Source: Streptosporangiaceae bacterium (GTDB lineage Bacteria > Actinomycetota > Actinomycetes > Streptosporangiales > Streptosporangiaceae). From it: a stretch of DNA of 31,454 nucleotides. Both the position numbers and the translations under genes were made by a program. This document shows positions 6,060 to 22,881 of this stretch, piece after piece. The stretch lies in assembly GCA_030040475.1 (NCBI GenBank), contig JASHTQ010000570.1, positions 1 to 31,454 on the forward strand. The letters are read 5' to 3'. The stretch's first letter is position 1; each line of letters begins with the position of its first letter. Under the pieces are notes generated by a model. It searched no databases, was not told the DNA's origin, and worked only from the letters and a program-made list of their open reading frames with translations.

Positions 6060-7451
6060 CTACCCGGTCGTGGTCGGCGCAGGAGAGGCCGCCGTGGTCG
6101 GTGCAGGAGAGGCCCCGGCGATCAGTTCGATGTCCGCGACCGGCACCAATACGAACTGGCACGTTACCGGCGCCGTCGGGTCTTCCGCTCGGGTAATCGT
6201 CGCGTCATCGAGCCGCAGAAGTGCGTCAATGAGGGCGGCAGCGGCGTCTTTGCCCTTCTTCGCATCGGAGGAGTACCACTTGCCCTCGGTACCAACGATC
6301 TTCGTTCCGGAACGCAGCCAGACGGTAACTTCTAGCATCTGACTGGGGTCGGTTCGTTTCTCATCCAAGGCGCGATGCCAGAGTCCTGCCGGGGTCGGTT
6401 CCGGAGGCGGGAAAATTTTGTGAATAGTCGCCACGATGAAGCTCCACGCTTGTTGTCGTCGCCGGTTGAGTACGGATGGTTGTCGCCGGATGAATGGGAC
6501 CAGCCGGGCGGGTTTGGATCTAGGTGTGGGTTCTATTACTTCGTGCGCAAGCCTTCGCCCTGCTCCGGCCGATGCTCCCAAACCGAACAGCGCCAACAGG
6601 GCGGACATGACGGGTCCCACCGATCCCAGGTTGGCTTGTATCTGGGCAAGCAGGCCCTGCCGGTCGGTGGATGTCAGTAGCTGGCGGAGCAGGGCACGCG
6701 TGTCCTCGGGAATTGTCATCGTCTGGCCCAAGACGACGCCGCCCGTGACCTCCTCGGCCTGGTCTTCGAGCTGGCCTTCCAATGTGGGGTCGGCCTCAAG
6801 GTAGCGGGGCACGATGACCAGGGAGACCTGGTGATACAGGGTCGTCATATGTGCGGCGAGTGCCATCCCGACGGCGACGTCGGGAGCAAACCCTGGCCCG
6901 AAAGCGGCCACGAAGACGACCTCGGAGGCCAGCTTCTGCCGGGTCGGGATCGTGGGCTCGCTCGAGGGAAGCGCGACCAGTGAGTAGGGTCCGGGAAGTG
7001 TCGACAACCCGTCAATATCGGCCCGACGCTTCAGGCACTGGTTTACCTGCTTTCCGTTCTTGATGACGAGCGGCGCGATATGCCATGCGCTTATCGTCTC
7101 GCCGACCAGTCGTTCTCGCTTAGGATTCTCCGAGGTGAAGAGCAGGGGCGCATCATGTTCCATGGCACATTGAGCCGCTCCCAACATGAGCGGCTCAGAC
7201 GCCGTGGCCGGCGTCTCGACGACGAACTTCGGCATGACCCAGAAGAGGGAGGCATCCACGGCGGTCTCTACATTTGTCTGGCCGCCGACACGGGTGAAGG
7301 GAGCGGCGACCGGCCCAGGGTGCCAGACTTCCACCAGCAAGAAGATCCCTGCTGCCAGCACGCCAAGCGCGGCGATGAGAGTGATGATGTCAATCCAGAG
7401 AGCAACTGGGGACCTGCCCTCCGGCTTGTCGCCGGATCCCTCAGCCGTCAC
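6060..7451 (-). CDS. Membrane-anchored protein with a cell-wall-binding-repeat-2-like segment
   Basis: With the GTG start at 7451 the protein is 463 residues. One TM helix lies near residues 16-42 (ALWIDIITLIAALGVLAAG). It is followed by RVGGQTNVETAVDASL and then VVETPATASEPLMLGAA and APLLFTSENP. That order resembles one cell-wall-binding repeat 2 (R-x-G-x-x-R/N-x-x-ETA, then an 'available/placed' strand, then 'aPiLLT'); this is a by-eye match, not a search result. A second weak hydrophobic stretch (VMSALLALFGLGASAGAG) precedes a basic linker and a soluble C-terminal domain of about 110 residues. The tail is a PAPTT repeat. A TTG at 7505 would add 18 residues, but the GTG has a G-rich stretch at ribosome-binding distance and is preferred. 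Function unknown. Confidence 0.75.
   Translation of the reverse strand: MTAEGSGDKPEGRSPVALWIDIITLIAALGVLAAGIFLLVEVWHPGPVAAPFTRVGGQTNVETAVDASLFWVMPKFVVETPATASEPLMLGAAQCAMEHDAPLLFTSENPKRERLVGETISAWHIAPLVIKNGKQVNQCLKRRADIDGLSTLPGPYSLVALPSSEPTIPTRQKLASEVVFVAAFGPGFAPDVAVGMALAAHMTTLYHQVSLVIVPRYLEADPTLEGQLEDQAEEVTGGVVLGQTMTIPEDTRALLRQLLTSTDRQGLLAQIQANLGSVGPVMSALLALFGLGASAGAGRRLAHEVIEPTPRSKPARLVPFIRRQPSVLNRRRQQAWSFIVATIHKIFPPPEPTPAGLWHRALDEKRTDPSQMLEVTVWLRSGTKIVGTEGKWYSSDAKKGKDAAAALIDALLRLDDATITRAEDPTAPVTCQFVLVPVADIELIAGASPAPTTAASPAPTTTG
6070..6117. repeat. 24-bp imperfect tandem duplication encoding the C-terminal PAPTT repeat
   Basis: The stretch gtggtcggcgcaggagaggc is repeated 24 bp downstream with one C/T difference. 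It duplicates eight residues (ASPAPTTA-like) at the C-terminus of the minus-strand gene. Confidence 0.7.
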
Positions 7452-7836
7452 GCCCTGACCCCCCGGGTACCGCGCTGCGGGGCCGTCGCGACCTCGCTCG
7501 CGCAATTACCCCATCGTGCCTGCCTGGTTCCGGTAACAGGTCCTAACTATCGAGTATCGGGCTTCGCCGCGCAAGCCACGCCTGCAAGAAAACCAAGAAT
7601 CCCTAACGGGCCAAAGATGAAATTGGACAGCGCCGCGCGGCGCGGAGTTGCCCGAGCCGAGGCCGAGCCGCAAAGCGATCGCAGGACGAGCCCTGGCGAG
7701 TGACCGCCAGGCAGGGTGAAAGCCGCAAGTGCTCACCCCGTGGCGTGTAGTACACGGGCGCCGATCTCCGGCGGTCACTGCGAGCGTTTCCCGGTCCCAT
7801 TTTAAATGCAGACGGCAGGTCCAAGGATTATCCGCA
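7452..7836. other. 385-bp intergenic region with hairpins
   Basis: No credible gene is seen. The region lies between two minus-strand genes and should hold the terminator of the prolyl oligopeptidase and the promoter of the membrane-anchored protein. Visible structures are a seven-pair hairpin CCTGGCG-AGTGAC-CGCCAGG at 7692-7711 (possible terminator), a GGGTGA...TCACCC pair near 7714-7738, and the palindrome CGCCGCGCGGCG near 7631-7642. A TTTTAAAT patch near 7800 is AT-rich against its surroundings. Confidence 0.5.
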
Positions 7837-11228: not shown

Positions 11229-13064
11229 ATGCGCATCAGGCATTCACTGGCCACAACGATGACAGCGCTGGCCCTGGCGGTAACCGTCGCGGCGTGCGGC
11301 GGCACGAGCGCGAAGATCGGCGGCGGCAGCGCCGTCAAGGGGCAACCGGAACGCGGCGGCACGGTCACCGTCGCAGAGCCGTCCGGCGCATCGCCCAACG
11401 ACATCTTCCCGCTGCTGCCCGCCACCAACAGCAACGGCTACAACGTCAACCTTACCGAGGGCGAGTGGCCGTACCTGGTCTACGTCGGCTATGGCGCGAA
11501 GTCGGTGGTCAACCCGCAAGAAAGCCTGTACAGCTCGCTGACCTGGTCGGACAACGACTCGGTGATCACGATCGTGCTGAAGCCGTGGAAGTGGTCCGAC
11601 GGGGTGCCGATCACCGCCCGCGACTTCACCTTCGTCTACAACCTGCTGAAGGCCAACTACAACGACTGGGGGGACTACGACCCCGGCCTGTTCCCGGCCG
11701 ACGTGACCAAGGTGACAACGCCGAACGCGCACACCGTCGTCATCCACCTGAACCGGTCCTACAATCCGTCGTTCTATACCGACGACGTACTGACCGAGGT
11801 GCCGCTGCTGCCGCAGCACGCCTGGGACAAGACCTCGCTGACCGGCAACGTCGGCAACTACGACGAGACCACCAAGGGTGCCGACGCGGTGTGGAACTTC
11901 CTGCAGAAGCAGGGCTCGGTCATGGGCAGCTTCACCACCAACCCGATGTGGCAGGTGGTGGACGGGCCGTGGAAGCTGGAGCAGTTCCAGAGCGACGGCT
12001 ACTACGTCTGGGTGCCGAACAAGAATTACTCCGGCCCTGACAAGCCAATCCTTTCCAAGATCGTCTTCACCCCCTTCACCACCGACGCCGCCGAGATGGA
12101 CACCCTGCGCTCGGGCACTAGCCTGACCATTGGCGGGCTGCCGCTCAACGACGTCGGCCAGATCAGCGCGCTCGAACACGAGGGGTACGCCGTCGCGTCG
12201 GTACCCACCCCAGGTGTCGCCGAGATCGTGCCGAACCTCTACAACCCGGTCAACGGTCCCCTGCTGCGCCAGCTCTACGTCCGCCAGGCCCTGGAGTACC
12301 TGATCAACCGGGGGCAGATCACCTCCGACGCGTTCCACGGTTACGCCGACCCCGGCAACGGCCCGGTCTCGACCCTCTACGGCCAGCAGTGGGACTCGCC
12401 GCTGGAGAAGGCGGGCGGGCCGTATCCGTACGCGCCGGCCAAGGCGGTGGCGCTGCTCAAGGCGCACGGCTGGAAGGTGATCCCGAACGGCACCGACACC
12501 TGCCAGCAGCCAGGAACCGGCGCGGCCGACTGCGGCGCGGGCGTCGCCGCGGGCGAGAAGCTGCAGTTCCAGCTGCTGTACGCGTCGGGATCAGCCTATT
12601 TCGACCAGATGAACGCGGCCATCCAGACCAGTGAGGCGCAGGCCGGCATCCATATCACCCTGAAGGCCGAGCCGTTCAACACGCTGGTGGCCACGACCGC
12701 CACCTGCAATGCCGCCTCGCACCCGACATCGACCTGCAGCTGGCAGCTGCAGCAGTTCGGCTACCAGCCGTACTCGCTGGACCCGAACGGATCGGGCCTG
12801 TTCAACACCGATGCGGTCGACAACTACGGCGGCTACTCCAGCCCGGAGATGGACCAGCTCGTCAACCAGACCGAGTACGGGTCGAGCTCGTCGGCGTTCT
12901 TCGCATACGAGGACTACGCGGCCGAACAGCTGCCGTGGCTGTGGCTGCCCAACCCGTCACAGGTCGTTGTGTACAAGAACAACCTGGCTGGTGTCGTCCC
13001 GTCGAGTCCCTTCGATTTCCTGCTAAACCCGGAGGTCTGGTATTACGTCAAGTCGGCCTCATGA
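11229..13064 (+). CDS. ABC transporter substrate-binding lipoprotein, peptide/nickel family (SBP_bac_5)
   Basis: This 611-residue protein starts with a lipoprotein signal (MRIRHSL, hydrophobic stretch, lipobox VAAC with Cys23), so it is tethered outside the cell. The body matches family 5 solute-binding proteins: GGTVTVAEPSG near the N-terminus, LKPWKWSDGVPITARDFTFVYN (the typical 'F.DG.p.tA.Dv.fs' motif), VRQALEYLINRGQI in the middle and a C-terminal YxxYEDYAAEQLPWLWLPNP segment. Ligands of this family include oligopeptides, nickel and sugars; the ligand here is unknown. A cysteine pair near residues 422-431 and another near 490-498 may form disulfides. The ATG has AGCAGG at about -10. The stop overlaps the next start as ATGA. 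Confidence 0.93.
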   Translation: MRIRHSLATTMTALALAVTVAACGGTSAKIGGGSAVKGQPERGGTVTVAEPSGASPNDIFPLLPATNSNGYNVNLTEGEWPYLVYVGYGAKSVVNPQESLYSSLTWSDNDSVITIVLKPWKWSDGVPITARDFTFVYNLLKANYNDWGDYDPGLFPADVTKVTTPNAHTVVIHLNRSYNPSFYTDDVLTEVPLLPQHAWDKTSLTGNVGNYDETTKGADAVWNFLQKQGSVMGSFTTNPMWQVVDGPWKLEQFQSDGYYVWVPNKNYSGPDKPILSKIVFTPFTTDAAEMDTLRSGTSLTIGGLPLNDVGQISALEHEGYAVASVPTPGVAEIVPNLYNPVNGPLLRQLYVRQALEYLINRGQITSDAFHGYADPGNGPVSTLYGQQWDSPLEKAGGPYPYAPAKAVALLKAHGWKVIPNGTDTCQQPGTGAADCGAGVAAGEKLQFQLLYASGSAYFDQMNAAIQTSEAQAGIHITLKAEPFNTLVATTATCNAASHPTSTCSWQLQQFGYQPYSLDPNGSGLFNTDAVDNYGGYSSPEMDQLVNQTEYGSSSSAFFAYEDYAAEQLPWLWLPNPSQVVVYKNNLAGVVPSSPFDFLLNPEVWYYVKSAS

Positions 13065-14017
13065 CCGGGTACCTGATCCGCCGCGTCGGCCAGTCGATCG
13101 CGGTCGTGATCGGCGTGATGATCCTTACGTTCATCCTGCTGCATATGGAGCCGGGCAGCGTGGCCAGGTCCGTGCTCGGGCTGAAGGCCACGCCCGCTCG
13201 GGTGGCGATCTTCGACAGCCTGTACGGCTTGAACAAGCCCCTGTACCAGCAGTTCGCGATCTACGTCAAGCAGCTCTTCCAGGGCAATCTGGGCATCTCG
13301 TATCAGCTCCAGCAGCCCGTGTCCACGCTGATCGCGCAGCGGCTGCCCCGGGATGCGATCCTGCTCGGCCTGTCCACGCTGCTGGCCCTGGTGATCGGCG
13401 TGCCGACCGGGATCTACCAGGCGGTGCGGCACAACCGCCTGCCTGACGACCTGCTGGCAGGGACCTGGTTCACGCTCTACTCCGCGCCGGACTTCATGGA
13501 GGCGTTGCTGCTCATCGCGCTCGTCTGCGTCCAGTTCCACCTGCTGCCCCCGGCCTTCCCCGGCGGGGTGACCTCGGTCGCCGGGCTGTTCGCCGACTGG
13601 CAGGCGCTGGTCCTCCCCGTGGTGGTGCTGGCGATCAACAGCGTGGCCGGCTTCAGCCAGTACGTGCGGTCCACCGCCCTGCAGGTACTGGCCGAGGACT
13701 ACATCCGGGTGGCCCGGGCCAAGGGCATGTCGGAGCGGCTGGTGCTGACCCGTCATGTGCTGCGCAACTCGCTGCTGCCGGTGATCACCATCCTCGGGCT
13801 GTCGCTTCCGGACATCGTGGCCGGCGCGGTGATCGCGGAGTCGATATTCAACTTCCCCGGCATGGGCCTGCTGTTCTGGCAGTCCGCGCTCGCCCACGAC
13901 TTCCCGGTGATGCTCGGCGGGACGCTGATCATCGGCGTGGCTACCGTGATCGGCAACCTGGCCGCCGACATCGCCTACAGCGTGCTCGACCCGAGGATCC
14001 GCTATGGCAGCGCCTGA
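13061..14017 (+). CDS. ABC transporter permease, DppB/OppB type
   Basis: This 318-residue membrane protein begins MTGYLIRRVGQSIAVVIGVM, the typical first helix of DppB-like permeases. It contains LYGLNKPLYQQF and GNLGISY, then six helices, and the EAA loop AEDYIRVARAKGMSERLVLTRHVLRNSLLPV that contacts the ATPase. It forms a heteromeric channel with the next gene product. The ATG overlaps the stop of the binding-protein gene (ATGA), which places it in the same operon. A longer in-frame extension upstream lies entirely within the binding-protein gene and is not the start. Confidence 0.95.
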   Translation: MTGYLIRRVGQSIAVVIGVMILTFILLHMEPGSVARSVLGLKATPARVAIFDSLYGLNKPLYQQFAIYVKQLFQGNLGISYQLQQPVSTLIAQRLPRDAILLGLSTLLALVIGVPTGIYQAVRHNRLPDDLLAGTWFTLYSAPDFMEALLLIALVCVQFHLLPPAFPGGVTSVAGLFADWQALVLPVVVLAINSVAGFSQYVRSTALQVLAEDYIRVARAKGMSERLVLTRHVLRNSLLPVITILGLSLPDIVAGAVIAESIFNFPGMGLLFWQSALAHDFPVMLGGTLIIGVATVIGNLAADIAYSVLDPRIRYGSA

Positions 14018-14987
14018 TACCGCGCCGACGCAGGCATCCCCGGGCGGCAGCCCGCTGGCCCCGGAGGGGGGCGAGGTAACCGCTTCCGGCACCGGCACCC
14101 AGCTCAGCCTGCGGGCGTTCGTGACCAGCAAGCGGGCGATGACCGGGACCGCGATCATCGTGCTGCTTGGCCTGTTCTGCTTCGTGGGCCCGCTGCTTTA
14201 CCACACCAACCAGGTCACGGTGAACCTGGGCATCGAGAACAGCCCGCCCGGGCCGGGCTACCCGCTCGGCACCGACCAGTACGGGATCGACGTGCTCGGC
14301 AGGCTGATGGTGGGGGGCCAGTCCTCGCTTGAGCTTGGCTTCGCCGTGGGCATCGCGACCACGGTGATCGGCTTGCTGTACGGCGCGGTATCCGGGATGG
14401 CCGGCGGGATCGTGGACGCATTGATGATGCGCTTCGTCGACACGCTGCTCGCGGTGCCCACTTTCATCCTGCTGATCATCGTGGCCAGCATGTTCTCGCT
14501 CAGCCTCTCGGTGATCATCCTGATCCTGACCGCGCTGTCCTGGCCCTACACCGCACGGCTGATCCGCGGCCAGGTGCTAGCGCTGAGACCCCGCGAGTTC
14601 GTTCAAGCGTCGCGGACGATGGGCGCCACCGGCCGGTGGATCCTGACCCGGCATATGGTGCCGAACACCCTGGGCATCAGCGTGGTCACGGCGACCTTTT
14701 CCATCGCCGACTCGATCTACGCGCTGTCGGCACTGAGCTTCCTCGGCATCGGCCCGCCGCCGCCGTTCACCGACTGGGGCACGATGCTGTCCAACGGGGT
14801 CGACAACTTGTTCAACGGCTACTGGTGGCAGGTATATCCGGCGCTGATCGTGCTGGTCGTGGTCGTTGTGGCATTCCGGCAGGTCGGCGACGCGCTGAAC
14901 GACATCGTCAGCGGGCAGCGCACCGGTGTGCTGCGGCGACGGCGGCGGTTCCGGCTGCTGCCGCTGTCTGCCCCGCGGGACGCGTAA
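14004..14987 (+). CDS. ABC transporter permease, DppC/OppC type
   Basis: This 327-residue membrane protein has a polar N-terminus of about 45 residues, an OppC_N first helix (TGTAIIVLLGLFCFVGPLLY), then LGTDQYGIDVLGRLMVGGQSS, which is typical of DppC-type permeases. The EAA loop reads PREFVQASRTMGATGRWILTRHMVPN. The start overlaps the preceding permease by 14 bp. No DppD or DppF ATPase follows; the next gene is an HExxH protein, so the ATPase must come from elsewhere in the genome. Confidence 0.95.
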   Translation: MAAPDTAPTQASPGGSPLAPEGGEVTASGTGTQLSLRAFVTSKRAMTGTAIIVLLGLFCFVGPLLYHTNQVTVNLGIENSPPGPGYPLGTDQYGIDVLGRLMVGGQSSLELGFAVGIATTVIGLLYGAVSGMAGGIVDALMMRFVDTLLAVPTFILLIIVASMFSLSLSVIILILTALSWPYTARLIRGQVLALRPREFVQASRTMGATGRWILTRHMVPNTLGISVVTATFSIADSIYALSALSFLGIGPPPPFTDWGTMLSNGVDNLFNGYWWQVYPALIVLVVVVVAFRQVGDALNDIVSGQRTGVLRRRRRFRLLPLSAPRDA

Positions 14988-15000
14988 AGGGGGCAGTGCC

Positions 15001-15885
15001 ATGCCGGGCGAGAACGGTCCCGACGACGCGGAAGCCGCGGTCTTCGCCGAGGTGGAGACGAGCCGCGCGGTGATCGACGTAGCGAAGCACGAGGGGCTTG
15101 CCTCGGTGCCTGGCTTCCCTTTCGAGGTTCGGACCAGCGAATCGACGCGCGAGCAGGCCGGGCGGCTGGCCGATCGCTGTGCCAGGGCTTACTCCTACCT
15201 CGGCGACATGCTCGCGTTCCGCCCCCGGTGCGCACTCCTGGTGCTCGACCGGGCCGACTGGTCCGAACGCGCATCGAACCCTTCGTACGTCATGCCGTAC
15301 TACAACGCCGGCAATCTCTTCATTACGGGCGAGCCCTCAGACCTGGCCGCCCGGCTTGAGGAAGTGGCGGGTTCTGCTCCTCCGGCAGCAGCCCGGGAAC
15401 TCGAGGAGGTCTACGGGACCGGCACCGACCGCCTGGCGTCTTTCGCCGACACGCTCGTCGTCCATGAGCTTGCGCACGCCTTCCACGACGGTGTTCCCTT
15501 CGTCTTCCCGCGGTCGTGGCTGATGGAGCTCTTCGCCGACATGGCGCTCTACGCGTTCATGGCTGCCGAAGAACCCGGTCGGCGGTTGCATGTCGAGACG
15601 CTCCCGCGTGTCGCGCTGGAGTACCGCCTGCTCAAGCCAGTCGCGCGTGACCTGCGGTACTTCGAGGCGTACTACCCCTACATTGAGCCGCTCACCTACG
15701 TCTGGTACCAGTTCCGCTTCACGATGATGGCCAAGAGCCTCGTCGACACGGCAGGCCCGAACGTGCTCAGGCGGCTCTGGAACGCGTTCGCCCTCACGGA
15801 CGAGCAGCTCGCTGGCGTCCTCGGCGGCCAGGTCCACCCGGCGGCGGGCCAGTGGCTCGCGTCGTGGGACGAACTGCCCCGATGA
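15001..15885 (+). CDS. Putative HExxH zinc metallopeptidase-like protein (gluzincin-like)
   Basis: The ATG at 15001, eight bases after a GGGGG stretch, gives 294 residues; a longer frame from 14926 runs back into the permease. The active-site-like motif is HELAHAF (His155, Glu156, His159), followed by WLMELFADM with Glu176 as a likely third zinc ligand and Asp180. The short HExxH-16-E spacing and the surrounding helices are gluzincin-like, but I do not recognise the family. No signal peptide or TM is seen, so it is probably cytosolic. It starts 13 bp after the permease stop and looks like the last gene of the operon. It could process imported peptides, but that is inference. Confidence 0.75.
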   Translation: MPGENGPDDAEAAVFAEVETSRAVIDVAKHEGLASVPGFPFEVRTSESTREQAGRLADRCARAYSYLGDMLAFRPRCALLVLDRADWSERASNPSYVMPYYNAGNLFITGEPSDLAARLEEVAGSAPPAAARELEEVYGTGTDRLASFADTLVVHELAHAFHDGVPFVFPRSWLMELFADMALYAFMAAEEPGRRLHVETLPRVALEYRLLKPVARDLRYFEAYYPYIEPLTYVWYQFRFTMMAKSLVDTAGPNVLRRLWNAFALTDEQLAGVLGGQVHPAAGQWLASWDELPR

Positions 15886-18190: not shown

Positions 18191-18629
18191 GAGATATCTC
18201 CGTTTCGTTTCCGTGTTCTGACTGCTGCACACGGACGATACGGGCCGGACGGCGGCCCGGCACGGGATTCTCCTGCCGTAGCCGCGACGGTAAGGATTCG
18301 GTAATCCCCGACTCGCGATCTGCGGCTCTCAGCTCGGCAAGCCCCGTGGCCGGGCTCGCCGATGCGCTTGCCGAGCGCCAGGACATCTCGCCGTCTTCGG
18401 TCGGGGCCAGAGATTCAATTCATCATTCCGAACGAAAGCGGGTATCTGTGCTCCCGTTGACCCCAGGCGGGCAGAGTGGCGAGCCAGCGAGGCGGGCCTG
18501 GCGGGGCGGGTCGCATGGGCGGGTCGCATGGGCGGCGCCGGAGCCATTGTGGCTGGCGGGATACCGGCCTATGAATGAATTACCACCGCTCGGCTCGTGG
18601 CATTCGATTCAGTGGGAGGAGCGAGTCCC
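18191..18629. other. 439-bp divergent intergenic region
   Basis: This lies between the divergent lipoprotein and delta-60 protein genes, and no gene is seen in it. It contains a GGATT-CGGT-AATCC inverted repeat at 18294-18307 and two perfect copies of the 13-bp unit gggcgggtcgcat at 18504-18529 followed by a partial third. Both are candidate regulatory elements only. Part of the region near 18410-18450 is less GC-rich than the rest and could hold a promoter. Confidence 0.5.
18504..18535. repeat. 13-bp tandem repeat, about 2.5 copies, upstream of the delta-60 gene
   Basis: gggcgggtcgcat occurs at 18504-18516 and 18517-18529, then gggcgg. It lies in noncoding DNA about 100 bp before the start of the secreted protein gene. 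No function is evident. Confidence 0.7.
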
Positions 18630-19955
18630 ATGATCACTGTTGCGATCCGCAGGCCCGGCCGGCTGGTTCTGTCCTTGATATTCGTTGCGGCCTGCGTCGT
18701 CTGCGCTGATCAGCAGAGTTCGATCGGGCAAAGTCTTGTCGATCCGGCCTGCCCAGGCGGGACCGGGACAGTCATTTCGGTGCCGGAATCGTGGCTCGCC
18801 GGGGCAGCCTTCGTTGTGACCGAGATGCTGCCCAGCGGCGCCACCCTCGTGGTGACGTCCGCCGGTTACCCGTCTGCCTCCTACGCCGTGGCGGACGCCT
18901 TCACGTCGGACTGTTCCCCAGACCGCGCCTTCGGCAGCGATGGAGTCGAGCGGCTCGTGTTCGGAGGCCAGGTCTTCAGCATTGCCGCGGCCGTTCCAGC
19001 GCCCGGCGGTGGCATGATTCTCGCCGGGAGCACGGCCAAGGGATGGCTGGTGGCGCGCCTGGACGCGCGCGGACGCCTCGACCCGACGTTCGGGTCGGGC
19101 GGTTGGACGGTACTGCCGTGGCCGGGTGGCGTGTCCGCCGTCGCCGTGACGCCATCGGGCGACATCGTGCTCGGCGGCAGCCAAGGCGGAGGCTGCTGTG
19201 TCAGGGAGTGGGTCGGAGAGCTGAACGCCGGTGGCGGCATAGTCAGCGAGTTCGGCCCGGGCGGCCGGGCGCCTATTCCCGTGTACCGGGACGACTCTGG
19301 CATCACACGGGTCTGGGTCGCGCCAGATGGGGACGTCTTCGCTCTCACCTCGGGCGGGAACATGGGGTGCTGGGGAATATCCATCTCCGCGCTCACCCCC
19401 TCGGGTTCGCCCGTGCCTTCCTTCCAGTCGAACTTCACCGCGGCCATGCGGCGCGTCTCGCCGTCGGGAGTCTTCGTCGGCGACGTGATCGTCCGGCCCG
19501 CCGGCTTCCTCCTCCTCGGCACGGAGCAGAGCGCCTGCGTCACCAGCCTGTCCAGCCGCACCGCGCAGGGTCGTGTCGTCGCGTTCCAGCTCGATGGCAA
19601 GCTGGAGTCGCGCTTCGGCGCCAACGGCGAGGCGAGCTTCGCCTCGCCGATGGCGCAGCCCGTGTGGGCACTGCCGCGCGACAACGGCGGGTTCGTGATG
19701 GCGGCCGCCCCGGTATTCATCCAGTTCAACCCGCACGCGAGAGCGGAGCTGAGCTTTTTTGACTTCTCCGCCGACGGCACCGTCGATCACGCCTTCGGGA
19801 AGGATGGCGTCGCCGACGTCCGGCTGCCCTACCTGAGCCAGTCACTCCCGGCCTCGGCCGTGCCGATCACCGTCGCGACCAACGGTAAGGTGGCCGCCCT
19901 TGTCACGAGCACGGCCAGCGGGAAAGCGCTCAGGCTCATACAACTTCCCTATTGA
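18630..19955 (+). CDS. Exported delta-60 repeat (beta-propeller-like) protein
   Basis: The ATG at 18630 follows GGGAGGAG and gives 441 residues; a start at 18597 lacks a site. The N-terminus is a signal sequence (RRPGRLVLSLIFVAAC), and VAAC at 19-22 could be a lipobox. The body has recurring units of about 50 residues: 'LDARGRLDPTFGSGGW', 'LDGKLESRFGANGEASF' and 'FSADGTVDHAFGKDGVADV', each followed by a strand of the 'a..pdG.i.lgG' type. This is the delta-60 repeat signature, predicted to form a propeller. Several cysteines (GGCCVREW, NMGCWG, EQSACVTS) suggest disulfides outside the cell. The function is unknown; a role in surface binding is possible. Confidence 0.82.
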   Translation: MITVAIRRPGRLVLSLIFVAACVVCADQQSSIGQSLVDPACPGGTGTVISVPESWLAGAAFVVTEMLPSGATLVVTSAGYPSASYAVADAFTSDCSPDRAFGSDGVERLVFGGQVFSIAAAVPAPGGGMILAGSTAKGWLVARLDARGRLDPTFGSGGWTVLPWPGGVSAVAVTPSGDIVLGGSQGGGCCVREWVGELNAGGGIVSEFGPGGRAPIPVYRDDSGITRVWVAPDGDVFALTSGGNMGCWGISISALTPSGSPVPSFQSNFTAAMRRVSPSGVFVGDVIVRPAGFLLLGTEQSACVTSLSSRTAQGRVVAFQLDGKLESRFGANGEASFASPMAQPVWALPRDNGGFVMAAAPVFIQFNPHARAELSFFDFSADGTVDHAFGKDGVADVRLPYLSQSLPASAVPITVATNGKVAALVTSTASGKALRLIQLPY

Positions 19956-20004: not shown

Positions 20005-20982
20005 TCAGGCCGTGTTCGCGTGGCCTGCGGCGTCGCGGGCGAGCTCGCCGACAAGGCGCCAGGTCCGCAGGCGTTCCTCGTCGGTGGCGAAGGCTGCCGG
20101 GCTTACCCGGACATCGGTCGCTCCCGCGTCGAGGTATCGCCGGAGCCCGGCTGCGACGGTTTCCTCGTCGCCGACCAGGGCCAGGTCGGCCGGGTGGGCG
20201 ATGCCCTCGCGCTCCAGGACGGCCTGGTATGAAGGGCTGCGCGCGGTTCCGCCGAGATAGCCGGCCGCGTGCGCTCGCGCGCCTTCGGGATCGGCGGTCA
20301 CCGAGGCCGGGACCCCGGCGGCGATCCGCGGCGCCGGCCGGCCCGCGGACTGTGCCGCCGCGGTGATGGCGGGGACGATGAGGCGGTCCAGGGAACGGGG
20401 CCCGGCGAGGTACGGCAGCGTGCCGTCGGCGAGTTCGCCGGCCGCCCGCAGGGCCTGCGGTCCCATGGCGGCGACGAGCAGCGGGACCCGCGGCGTCACG
20501 CCGCCGCGCAGGACGGCCGCCGGCACTGCCGACAGGTCCGCGGTGACGGTGGCGCCCCGGACCTCGGCGGTCCCGGTGTCCAGCAGCGAGCGCACCACCC
20601 GGAGGTAGTCGCGCAGATGCCCGATGGGCCGGTCGAACGGCACCCCGAACACGCCCTCCACCTGCGCCTTGTGGCCGAGCCCGATGCCGAGGACGAACCG
20701 GCCGCCGGCCGCGAGCTGTGCTGCCTTGGCCTGGCTGGCGAGCGTGACCGGGTGGCGGGGGTACATCGGCACGGCGGCGATCCCGATAATGACGCGCGGG
20801 ACCTCGCGCGCCACCAGGGCGGCGACCGTGATGCCGTCGAGGTCGATCCCCTGATTGAGCCAGATGTCGTCCACCCCGGCCGCCTCGGCCTCGCGGGCGC
20901 GCTCGATCACGAAGCTCAGCGCGTCGGCACCGTCAAGCGCCGAGGCCGGGGCCGACGTCAGCAGCGAGATCCCGAAACTCAT
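20005..20982 (-). CDS. LLM-class (luciferase-like) oxidoreductase, probably F420-dependent
   Basis: The ATG at 20982, with GGAAGG upstream, gives 325 residues; the longer frame to 21090 has no good site. The TIM-barrel signature is present: AREAEAAGVDDIWLNQ, VPRVIIGIAAVPMYPRHPVTLASQAKAAQ, LAAGGRFVLGIGLGHKAQVEGVFG, LRDYLRVVRSLLDTG and VPLLVAAMGPQALRAAGELADGTLPYL. Actinomycete members mostly use F420 to reduce or oxidise small organics; the substrate is unknown. It converges closely with the delta-60 gene (49 bp) and diverges from the TauD-like gene, with 244 bp between starts. Confidence 0.9.
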   Translation of the reverse strand: MSFGISLLTSAPASALDGADALSFVIERAREAEAAGVDDIWLNQGIDLDGITVAALVAREVPRVIIGIAAVPMYPRHPVTLASQAKAAQLAAGGRFVLGIGLGHKAQVEGVFGVPFDRPIGHLRDYLRVVRSLLDTGTAEVRGATVTADLSAVPAAVLRGGVTPRVPLLVAAMGPQALRAAGELADGTLPYLAGPRSLDRLIVPAITAAAQSAGRPAPRIAAGVPASVTADPEGARAHAAGYLGGTARSPSYQAVLEREGIAHPADLALVGDEETVAAGLRRYLDAGATDVRVSPAAFATDEERLRTWRLVGELARDAAGHANTA

Positions 20983-21165
20983 GACACGGCCGCCTTCCAG
21001 ATAATCCCTACCGGATTTGCAGGTTAATACATGGTCCCAAGCGGCCGCAGGGCGGAGCCGGCTCCCCGCCTGGCGCACTGCCGGGTACATCGCAGCCGTC
21101 CGGCCGAGCCCGGCGACAACACGTCCGCCGTGCCAGAGATCGGAGCATCGTCCCCGCGATCACGA

Positions 21166-21194
21166 TTGAATAAAACCGATCGGATTAGTAGGAT
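21166..21194 (+). promoter_or_regulatory. Strong housekeeping-type promoter of the TauD-like gene
   Basis: TTGAAT (21166-21171), a 17-bp spacer, then TAGGAT (21189-21194) is close to the vegetative sigma consensus. It lies in a markedly AT-rich patch, and transcription should start near 21201. The ribosome-binding site AAGGAGG (21215-21221) follows, five bases before the GTG at 21227. The leader is short and leaves no room for a riboswitch. Confidence 0.65.
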
Positions 21195-21226
21195 TTACTT
21201 CGTCCGGTGTGTTCAAGGAGGATCAC

Positions 21227-22012
21227 GTGACTGAGATCCTGGCCAGCCGCTTCGCAGTCCATCCCGCCAGTCCCCTCATCGGCGCCGAGATCGAGGGCGT
21301 CGACCTTACTCAGCCCGTCGACGAGGCGACCGCGGAGGCCCTGCGGGAGGCGTTCTGGCGCTACAAGGTCCTGGTCTTCCGCAACCAGAACCTCTCGCCG
21401 CTCCAGCACGTGGAGGCGGCGCGTATCTTCGACGAGCCCTTCGACCACCCTCTATGGGTCAACCGGCACGCCGACAGCCGGCTGGTGTACCCATTCAGCT
21501 ATGAGACGGGCACCGCGGATCGCTGGCATATCGGCGGTACCTGGCGCAACCCGCCGTTCAGCATCGAGTCGCTCACCTACCAGGTGGTGCCGGAGATCGG
21601 CGGCCACACGCTGTGGGCCGACCTGCAGGCGGCCTACGACGGCCTATCCCGGCCCGTGCAGGAACTGTTGGAGTCGGTCAGCGCCGTCTACAGCGCCTAC
21701 CCGGGCGACGGCACCGGCAACCGGCCGCCGGATGGCGAGACGATCGAGCATCCGGTCGTCCGCGCCCACCGCCACACGGGCCGCAAGGGGCTGCTCATCA
21801 GCACCGCCGCCATTCGGCTTGTCGGCGTCACCGAGACCGAGAGCCAGGCCCTCCTGCCCTTCCTGCAGGCTCATGCCTCCTCCCCGAACTACACCGTCAG
21901 CTTCGGCTGGAAGCCAGGCGACTTCGTCCTCTGGGACAACCTGGCCAGCTGGCACTACGCCGTCAACGATTACAACGGCCCCCGCGTCTACCGCAAGGTC
22001 ATCGCTGGCTGA
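21227..22012 (+). CDS. TauD/TfdA-family Fe(II)/2-oxoglutarate enzyme with HxG in place of HxD
   Basis: The GTG at 21227 gives 261 residues; a GTG at 21209 would put the AAGGAGG site inside the gene. The fold is TauD/TfdA: IGAEIEGVDLTQP, FWRYKVLVFRNQ, VVPEIGGHTLWADLQAAYDGL, FGWKPGDFVLWDN, the distal metal ligand His243 in SWHYAVNDY, and Arg253/256 in PRVYRKV for 2-oxoglutarate. The proximal motif, WHTD in TauD and WHSD-like in TfdA, here reads WHIGGTW: His101 is present, but Gly103 (codon GGC, 21533-21535) replaces the metal-binding Asp. Elsewhere in the superfamily this opens a halide site in halogenases. It may chlorinate a substrate, do other chemistry or be inactive. Nothing else in the gene looks decayed. 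Confidence 0.88.
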   Translation: MTEILASRFAVHPASPLIGAEIEGVDLTQPVDEATAEALREAFWRYKVLVFRNQNLSPLQHVEAARIFDEPFDHPLWVNRHADSRLVYPFSYETGTADRWHIGGTWRNPPFSIESLTYQVVPEIGGHTLWADLQAAYDGLSRPVQELLESVSAVYSAYPGDGTGNRPPDGETIEHPVVRAHRHTGRKGLLISTAAIRLVGVTETESQALLPFLQAHASSPNYTVSFGWKPGDFVLWDNLASWHYAVNDYNGPRVYRKVIAG

Positions 22013-22139
22013 CTCCAGGGACAGGCAGGGCGATAGGGCACTCGCTGACGCCGTCGGCCGGGTCGAGGCGCGGGGTCGGCGGGCGCCAGCTCGCGTCACC
22101 GACGTCCGACTCGGCTGGCCTGCACCACGCCATAAACTA

Positions 22140-22145
22140 TATAAT
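22140..22145 (+). promoter_or_regulatory. Perfect TATAAT -10 element before the GNAT gene
   Basis: TATAAT lies in an AT-rich stretch (22131-22165) 31 bp upstream of the GNAT start. No good -35 is found at 16-18 bp spacing, so it would need an activator or be weak. The GNAT gene therefore probably has its own promoter in addition to any read-through from the TauD-like gene. Confidence 0.4.
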
Positions 22146-22176
22146 TCCGGTCTGAATTAACAACAAAGGGAAGGCC

Positions 22177-22881
22177 ATGATGGCACCGCATCCACTCGAC
22201 AACCCCGTGCTCTGGTCGCTGACCGGACCGCATGCCCGGTTTGCGGAGCGGCGCGGCAACATCCTGCGCTACCCAGTTGACGTCGCCCCGTTTCTCGCGA
22301 TGCCTGACGAGCCGGACGAAGCCGACTGGGCGGACGCCGCGGCCCTGGTCGGGCCGGGCGGCCTGCTGCCGCTGGCCGGCATTCGGGTCGCGCCACCAAC
22401 CGGCTGGGAGGTGGTGACGGTCGGCGAGGGAGTGCAGATGACCGGCGATTATCTTGAGGTCGCCGCCGATCCGGAGGCAGTGCCGCTGGGTCGCGCGGAT
22501 GTTCCTGAGATGCTCGACCTTGTCGCGCGCACCAAGCCGGGACCGTTCCTGCCGCGCACCTTCGAACTCGGCTCGTACCTGGGCATCCGCAGGAACGGAA
22601 GGCTGGTGGCGATGGCCGGGGAGCGGCTGCATCCGGAGGGCTGGACGGAGATCAGTGCGGTCTGCACCGACGAGGCCTGGCGGGGCCATGGGCTCGCCAC
22701 CCGGCTGATCCGGGCGGTCGGCGCGGGCATCCGGGTCCGCGGCGACCTGCCGTTCCTGCACGCGGTTGCCACCAATCCCGCGATCGGGCTGTATGAGAAG
22801 CTGGGCTTCCGGCACCGCAGGATGACCTTGTTCGCGGCGGCCCGGATCCCGGAAGCCCAGCTGCCCGGCCGGGCAGGTTAG
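22177..22881 (+). CDS. GNAT-family N-acetyltransferase (FR47-like)
   Basis: This 234-residue protein has an N-terminal domain of about 95 residues (MMAPHPLDNPVLWSLTGPHARFAE...) and a C-terminal GNAT domain. The acetyl-CoA site is seen in ISAVCTDEAWRGHGLATRLI (motif A, R/Q-x-x-G-x-G/A), followed by FLHAVATNPAIGLYEKLGFRHRR (motif B). This two-part layout is common in actinomycete FR47-like acetyltransferases that act on small amines or amino acids; the acceptor is unknown. AAAGGGAAGG precedes the ATG; a second ATG directly follows. It converges with the APC gene with a 4-bp gap. Confidence 0.92.
   Translation: MMAPHPLDNPVLWSLTGPHARFAERRGNILRYPVDVAPFLAMPDEPDEADWADAAALVGPGGLLPLAGIRVAPPTGWEVVTVGEGVQMTGDYLEVAADPEAVPLGRADVPEMLDLVARTKPGPFLPRTFELGSYLGIRRNGRLVAMAGERLHPEGWTEISAVCTDEAWRGHGLATRLIRAVGAGIRVRGDLPFLHAVATNPAIGLYEKLGFRHRRMTLFAAARIPEAQLPGRAG

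Follow-up and report, generated by a model that had tools for sequence, protein, structure and literature searches.

A Gly-for-Asp clade inside the TauD/TfdA family, with an invariant Glu as candidate relocated iron ligand

What becomes of a TauD/TfdA-family protein when the metal-binding Asp of its HxD motif (x, any residue) is replaced by Gly? The question is raised by a gene on contig JASHTQ010000570.1 of a Streptosporangiaceae bacterium (assembly GCA_030040475.1), of which the whole stretch analysed, 31,454 nucleotides, is called the window here. A missing HxD Asp is easily taken for a sign of a dead enzyme or of a halogenase, and a sequence-only reading of this gene had proposed a candidate halogenase or new chemistry. 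From our analysis, the Asp-to-Gly change is confirmed as real and marks a conserved clade inside the TauD/TfdA family, in which Gly103 is accompanied by Glu114 in 277 of 277 proteins, against 0 of 128 relatives with Asp103. This pattern suggests that the third iron ligand has moved from the Asp to Glu114, rather than that the enzyme has changed to a halogenase.

The reading frame at 21227-22012 (+) is intact and its translation is 261 residues long. WHIGGTW, where TauD/TfdA proteins have WHxD, occupies residues 100-106 (with His101 and Gly103), and in a profile alignment Gly103 falls on Asp101 of E. coli TauD (1gqw; residue numbers counted from the alignment). The protein therefore departs from the canonical HxD/E...H motif of 2-His-1-carboxylate 2-oxoglutarate (2OG) oxygenases, with HxG at 101-103 and His243 kept, and it shows the exchange of the Asp/Glu ligand for Gly/Ala that is one mark of an Fe/2OG halogenase. 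The rest of the site is present as the sequence-only reading had described it, namely the segment GGHTLWADLQAAY (residues 125-137), His243 and Arg253, and Thr128 is kept alongside them; Arg253 is found in 275 of 275 readable clade members and Thr128 in 277 of 277, and we take both to bind 2OG as in TauD. The PF02668 (Pfam TauD) profile scored 175.6 bits (cut-off 27), which places this HxG protein within TauD/TfdA as had been claimed, and the predicted structure, with a predicted local distance difference test score (pLDDT) of 93.6, has the TauD double-stranded beta-helix fold. The taurine dioxygenase equivalog (NF007104, NCBIfam) gave 166.8 bits, below its cut-off of 313.

Relatives were taken from match lists of 294, 366 and 2523 entries, the best 120 of each, and from genome loci, and the 414 sequences came to 406 after duplicate removal: 277 with Gly103, 128 with Asp103 and one fragment. 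Gly103 and Gly104 occur together in the query and the best 120 of 294 database matches (121 of 121) and in all 277 HxG members of the wider set; among the Asp103 relatives the counts are 0 of 128 for Gly103 and 3 of 128 for Gly104. Gly104, Trp106 (277/277 in the clade vs 6/128 HxD relatives) and Trp242 (269/275 vs 0/128) complete the signature of the clade with Gly103 and Glu114. In a FastTree tree of 405 sequences, all 277 Gly103 proteins formed one clade with support 1.0, also when the eight motif columns were left out; the Gly is thus no lone variant. The clade splits into groups of 226 (that of the window protein), 37 and 14 members, with mean identities of 40-43% between the three groups and 33-35% to the HxD relatives, and the pairing of the two smaller groups is weak (support 0.29 and 0.46). 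No description of this HxGG clade was found in searches of the open-access literature.

A scan of one genome per species, from which 80 loci (the best of 219 confirmed) were taken, gave 44 loci at 58-74% identity to the window protein, including ones from Frankia, Mycobacterium, Streptomyces, Pseudonocardia, Actinomadura and Amycolatopsis; HxGG is readable in 43 of the 44, the motif of L042 being the one that could not be read. The C-terminal piece of a further such gene lies in Streptomyces sp. CB01635 (L054), with three luciferase-like genes nearby. In 393 genomes of the class of genome G001, members scoring at least 475 bits are present in 18, and an intermediate (L099; 239 bits, 41% identity) is also HxGG; below it, matches begin at 197 bits, and the 11 of these that were read are HxD. 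More HxGG proteins came from querying first with the L099 protein and next with aligned divergent forms, some source-named Streptomyces, Crossiella, Polyangiaceae and Gemmatimonadales. Three checked Polyangiaceae/Polyangiales proteins fall into the group of 37 and the Gemmatimonadales protein into that of the window. The window protein had matches at E 1e-30 in 139 plasmid records, the best two (41.9% and 39.9% identity) being HxD with Ser at 114; a query from the 37-member lineage matched 25 plasmid records, one of them from Embleya, and the 10 listed do not exceed 36% identity. One genome has three adjacent PF02668 matches (G008:C880:15345-18147).

Position 114 in the 128 HxD relatives is occupied by Ser (86), Thr (21) or Ala (21), and its column matches position 112 of TauD, an Ala, in the alignment to 1gqw, again by counted numbers. 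No further position combined an acidic residue in 97% or more of the clade with none in the relatives outside (277 vs 128 proteins). In the predicted model Glu114 opens strand 113-120, which we take, by analogy with other double-stranded beta-helix enzymes, to line the iron and 2OG. In the HxD relatives, position 114 is never charged, 116 is Leu in 127 of 128 and 117 frequently holds a polar residue (charged or amide in 62%), a pattern suggesting that the side chain of Glu114 faces inward, and the residue is probably beside the iron site. The sequence-only reading had named another carboxylate in the ligand position as evidence against its proposal; Glu114 is such a carboxylate by sequence, not by measured geometry. 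Other residues were considered and set aside. Asp132 was judged less likely as a new ligand, being also present in 54 of 128 HxD relatives; Arg107 is ruled out as a clade-specific halide residue (some HxD neighbours have Arg, and the 37-member lineage has Lys, Gln or Ser), and Tyr118, His74 and Lys257 are ruled out as defining residues, as they differ among lineages.

Several observations weigh against a relocated ligand. Position 115 is non-polar like 114 in the HxD relatives, so the inward orientation is suggested and no more; the coupling of Gly103 and Glu114 is a single event on the tree, not repeated covariation; and exceptions to the pairing may exist beyond the sampled proteins, since the sample holds the best matches of each query plus the loci. 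Glu114 could also be a second-sphere residue only. The enzyme would then be a hydroxylase in which two His bind the iron, water is the third ligand and Glu114 fixes the water or the substrate. Human AspH is a natural precedent, as the accessible portions of two reports describe it: a hydroxylase whose iron is bound by two His of the protein and by water, with no HxD carboxylate and no halogenation of its substrate (PMC13168262, PMC10947486). Both His and the 2OG-binding Arg are kept in every readable clade member, which agrees with such a site; by itself, however, it leaves the presence of Glu114 in all clade members and in none of the HxD relatives unexplained, and we consider it unlikely, though a serious alternative.

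The reading that we prefer, tentatively and at somewhat under an even chance, is an active Fe(II)/2OG oxygenase of TauD fold with a rebuilt triad (His101, His243 and Glu114) that hydroxylates a scavenged compound. The analysis shows the sequence, the predicted fold, the clade, purifying selection, the pairing of Gly103 with Glu114 and the gene neighbourhoods; binding of iron and 2OG, the role of Glu114, the reaction and the substrate class are what we infer. Fe(II) would be held by His101 and His243, with Glu114, at the start of the strand after the HxGG loop, as the third, carboxylate ligand, and Gly103-Gly104 would clear the former position of the Asp. With 2OG bound by Arg253 and Thr128, O2 would be converted to a ferryl species that hydroxylates a C-H next to a heteroatom, whereupon the product would fall apart. 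The substrate may be a scavenged organosulfur or N-acyl amino-acid-like compound, and in part of the window lineage the enzyme would work beside flavin monooxygenases, joined at some loci by GNAT acetyltransferases and importers. The counterpart of TauD Arg270 is Lys or His in every readable clade member except one, which weakens the case for a purely sulfonate (taurine-like) role.

The HxGG gene is maintained by purifying selection, as the ratio of nonsynonymous to synonymous substitution rates (dN/dS) has a median of 0.34 and a maximum of 0.71 (43 clade coding sequences; 900 of 903 pairs with dS 0.1-1.5). A decaying gene or a sequencing error would fit the stop within the matched stretch at L042, from a metagenome assembly of Mycobacterium, and at L043, from Pseudonocardia alaniniphila, 2 of the 44 genome loci and both left out of the dN/dS count; against it stand Gly103 in 277 non-redundant proteins, the dN/dS values and the intact frame, by which this explanation is already refuted and retains practically no credence. 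The sequence-only reading had also argued against decay, from a strong promoter and ribosome-binding site. The ribosome-binding site is there (Table 1), 5 bases before the GTG start, and a simple sigma-70 scan of 20950-22250 found no promoter on the + strand. The incomplete canonical metal triad would also fit a protein that is no longer a 2OG oxygenase and whose fold now serves as a lyase, an isomerase, a binding protein or a regulator. Purifying selection and the retention of His101, His243, Thr128 and Arg253 in every readable clade member stand against such a recruitment, and we hold it to be quite improbable.

Gene neighbourhoods were compared over 45 loci (the 44 genome loci and the window) using a simple gene caller and a luciferase-type profile, with 20 arbitrary 20-kb stretches from five of these genomes and 20 stretches around TauD paralogues as controls. 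The caller recovered a TauD gene in 40 of the 45 clade loci and 16 of the 20 paralogue loci. Luciferase-like genes numbered 71 in 34 of the 45 loci (1.64 per 20 kb), against 4 in the random control, all in one of 20 stretches (0.20 per 20 kb). Of the 45 clade loci, 22 have a YtnJ-type (desulfurising) gene, which is also present at 6 of the 20 paralogue loci and in 1 of the 20 random stretches; the called open reading frames (ORFs) of the window include none. The paralogue stretches carry HxD in 19 of 20, the pattern not being found in L149; one of them (L147) also contains the HxGG gene of L018 and has no luciferase-like gene, and its removal, after which the control has about 0.44 luciferase-like genes per 20 kb in 7 of 19 loci, leaves the outcome unchanged. 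Nine luciferase-like proteins were classed, into subfamilies including NtaA/DmoA, MsnO8, SsuD-like, CE1758-like and F420 types. Whole-genome PF00296 matches, counted for the genomes of 24 of 25 loci (6.9-11.8 Mb), numbered at least 30-63 per genome, with at most 60 candidates scored in the majority of genomes.

At one of these loci (L045), a DUF1684-type gene (so labelled by clustering with L004), three luciferase-like genes, the HxGG gene and a GNAT gene follow each other on one strand, with overlaps as called. The gene directly before the HxGG gene has B. subtilis YtnJ, which we take to be CmoJ, as its closest PDB match, and the GNAT directly after it is 64% identical to that of the window. 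The annotated window-type loci resemble biosynthetic clusters less than they do loci for catabolic scavenging, and the neighbourhoods hint at oxidative scavenging, not halogenation. Scavenging of organosulfur or N-acyl amino-acid compounds is a lead for the window lineage and a weaker one for the window itself, because the neighbours there are an F420-type oxidoreductase, a GNAT and an amino-acid permease. Near the HxGG gene, a glutathione-transferase-like gene was seen at L001, L002 and L009-L011 (Frankia and relatives), and an old-yellow-enzyme-type gene upstream at L001, L003 and L005, one representative of each being annotated.

Other counts speak against a scavenging role. The paralogue control also has luciferase-like genes, 8 of them in 7 of 20 loci (0.41 per 20 kb), and the count favours the clade because the nine genes behind the profile are themselves neighbours of clade genes, one of the window gene and eight of other members; the scanned loci, moreover, stem from related genomes. 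Luciferase-like genes are missing from 11 of the 45 loci, 8 of these from Frankia or Protofrankia. Only 4 of 45 loci (window included) have a close GNAT homologue, as does 1 of 20 random stretches, and the luciferase-like neighbour in the window belongs to the F420 type and not to a known desulfurising type.

From the 14-member lineage one locus was read, L140, whose protein matches a Streptomyces abikoensis record at 100% identity across 98% of the length. At L140:430-15877 lie genes for a DegT aminotransferase, a 3-hydroxyisobutyrate-dehydrogenase-like protein, a NUDIX protein, the HxGG protein, a GNAT and an amino-acid permease, along with a called frame that holds both a leucyl-tRNA synthetase and a HAD domain. 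The locus may be a cluster for an amino-acid antimetabolite, with the leucyl-tRNA synthetase perhaps for self-resistance, an appearance that keeps a biosynthetic, even halogenating, role open in that lineage. The parallel between its GNAT and that of the window is weak, as the two share no more than 25% identity in 179 aligned columns (E 0.001) and are not closely related. A TauD-type halogenase would bind a halide in the vacated site, held with the help of Arg107 and Lys257, and the HxG motif, which the sequence-only reading ascribes to known halogenases, agrees with it, as do the surroundings of L140. Against it, a conserved carboxylate is probably beside the site, Arg107 and residue 257 differ among lineages and the annotated neighbours in the window lineage look catabolic; furthermore, TauD D101A and P4H D414A/G gained no halogenase activity, according to the accessible part of the sources. 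Losing the Asp need not give a halogenase, because AspH hydroxylates with two His and water. The halogenase reading is thus left unsupported by the invariant Glu114, the catabolic-looking loci and the AspH and TauD D101A precedents, and we rate it as improbable.

Table 1. Positions in the window of the HxGG gene, its key codons and the adjoining genes
Feature	Position	Strand	Basis or remark
TauD/TfdA-family (PF02668) HxGG protein, 261 aa, GTG start	21227..22012	+	translation, Pfam, model
AAGGAGG ribosome-binding site	21215..21221	+	read directly
His101 codon, putative proximal iron ligand (from TauD His99)	21527..21529	+	His in 277/277 HxG, 128/128 HxD
Gly103-Gly104 codons, in place of Asp ligand and next residue	21533..21538	+	277/277 clade
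Glu114 codon, candidate relocated carboxylate ligand, strand start	21566..21568	+	277/277 clade, 0/128 HxD
His243 codon, putative distal iron ligand	21953..21955	+	275/275 readable clade members
Arg253 codon, putative 2OG-binding Arg (from TauD Arg266)	21983..21985	+	275/275 readable clade, 128/128 HxD
GNAT (FR47-type) acetyltransferase	22177..22881	+	next gene downstream, same strand
F420-type luciferase-like oxidoreductase (TIGR03564)	20005..21090	-	divergently transcribed

Elsewhere in the window, a peptide-type binding protein and two permeases, then an ORF at 14926-15885, lie within 11229-15885. This transporter (11.2-15.9 kb) was considered as a part of the system and not adopted; one permease compares with L045 at 36% identity over 219 columns. 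Two long called ORFs (6060-7505 and 18597-19955) have no Pfam match above the cut-off.

If the rebuilt triad is true, the loss of the HxD Asp would have a third outcome beside a dead enzyme and a halogenase, a ligand relocated within the fold, in a clade of at least 277 non-redundant proteins, and the HxGG clade would allow the limits of rearranging the facial triad to be tested directly. Should Glu114 not bind the iron, the clade would instead represent a family of TauD-type halogenases or the bacterial equivalent of AspH; each of the three would be new, as far as our literature searches go. Many of the neighbourhoods suggest that soil actinobacteria have a pathway of oxidative scavenging.

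Among known systems, E. coli TauD, AtsK, RdpA/AAD-1 and PlaO1 (PF02668) have an Asp ligand where the HxGG clade has Gly, and the clade differs from TauD and its relatives further by the new Glu114, the typical Trp106 and Trp242, and Lys/His for TauD Arg270. The Fe/2OG halogenases SyrB2, WelO5, BesD and AdeV belong to other branches of the superfamily than TauD/TfdA; WelO5, BesD and AdeV have no Asp/Glu at the HxD position, WelO5 and BesD being HxG. SyrB2, in the accessible part of its description, likewise has no Asp/Glu there, as in the HxGG clade. What sets the clade apart from these four enzymes is the invariant Glu, which probably lies near the site, and the mostly catabolic look of the neighbours in the window lineage. 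AspH, as far as its accessible descriptions go, differs in that it has no protein carboxylate ligand and water fills the site. A metabolic likeness is to the salvage of S-alkylcysteine and S-(2-succino)cysteine (CmoO/CmoJ; the yxe locus), as YtnJ-type monooxygenases occur at some window-type loci together with a GNAT and with importers of the amino-acid or peptide type, whereas the accessible portions of the reports on that salvage name no 2OG enzyme (PMC10863075, PMC9706529).
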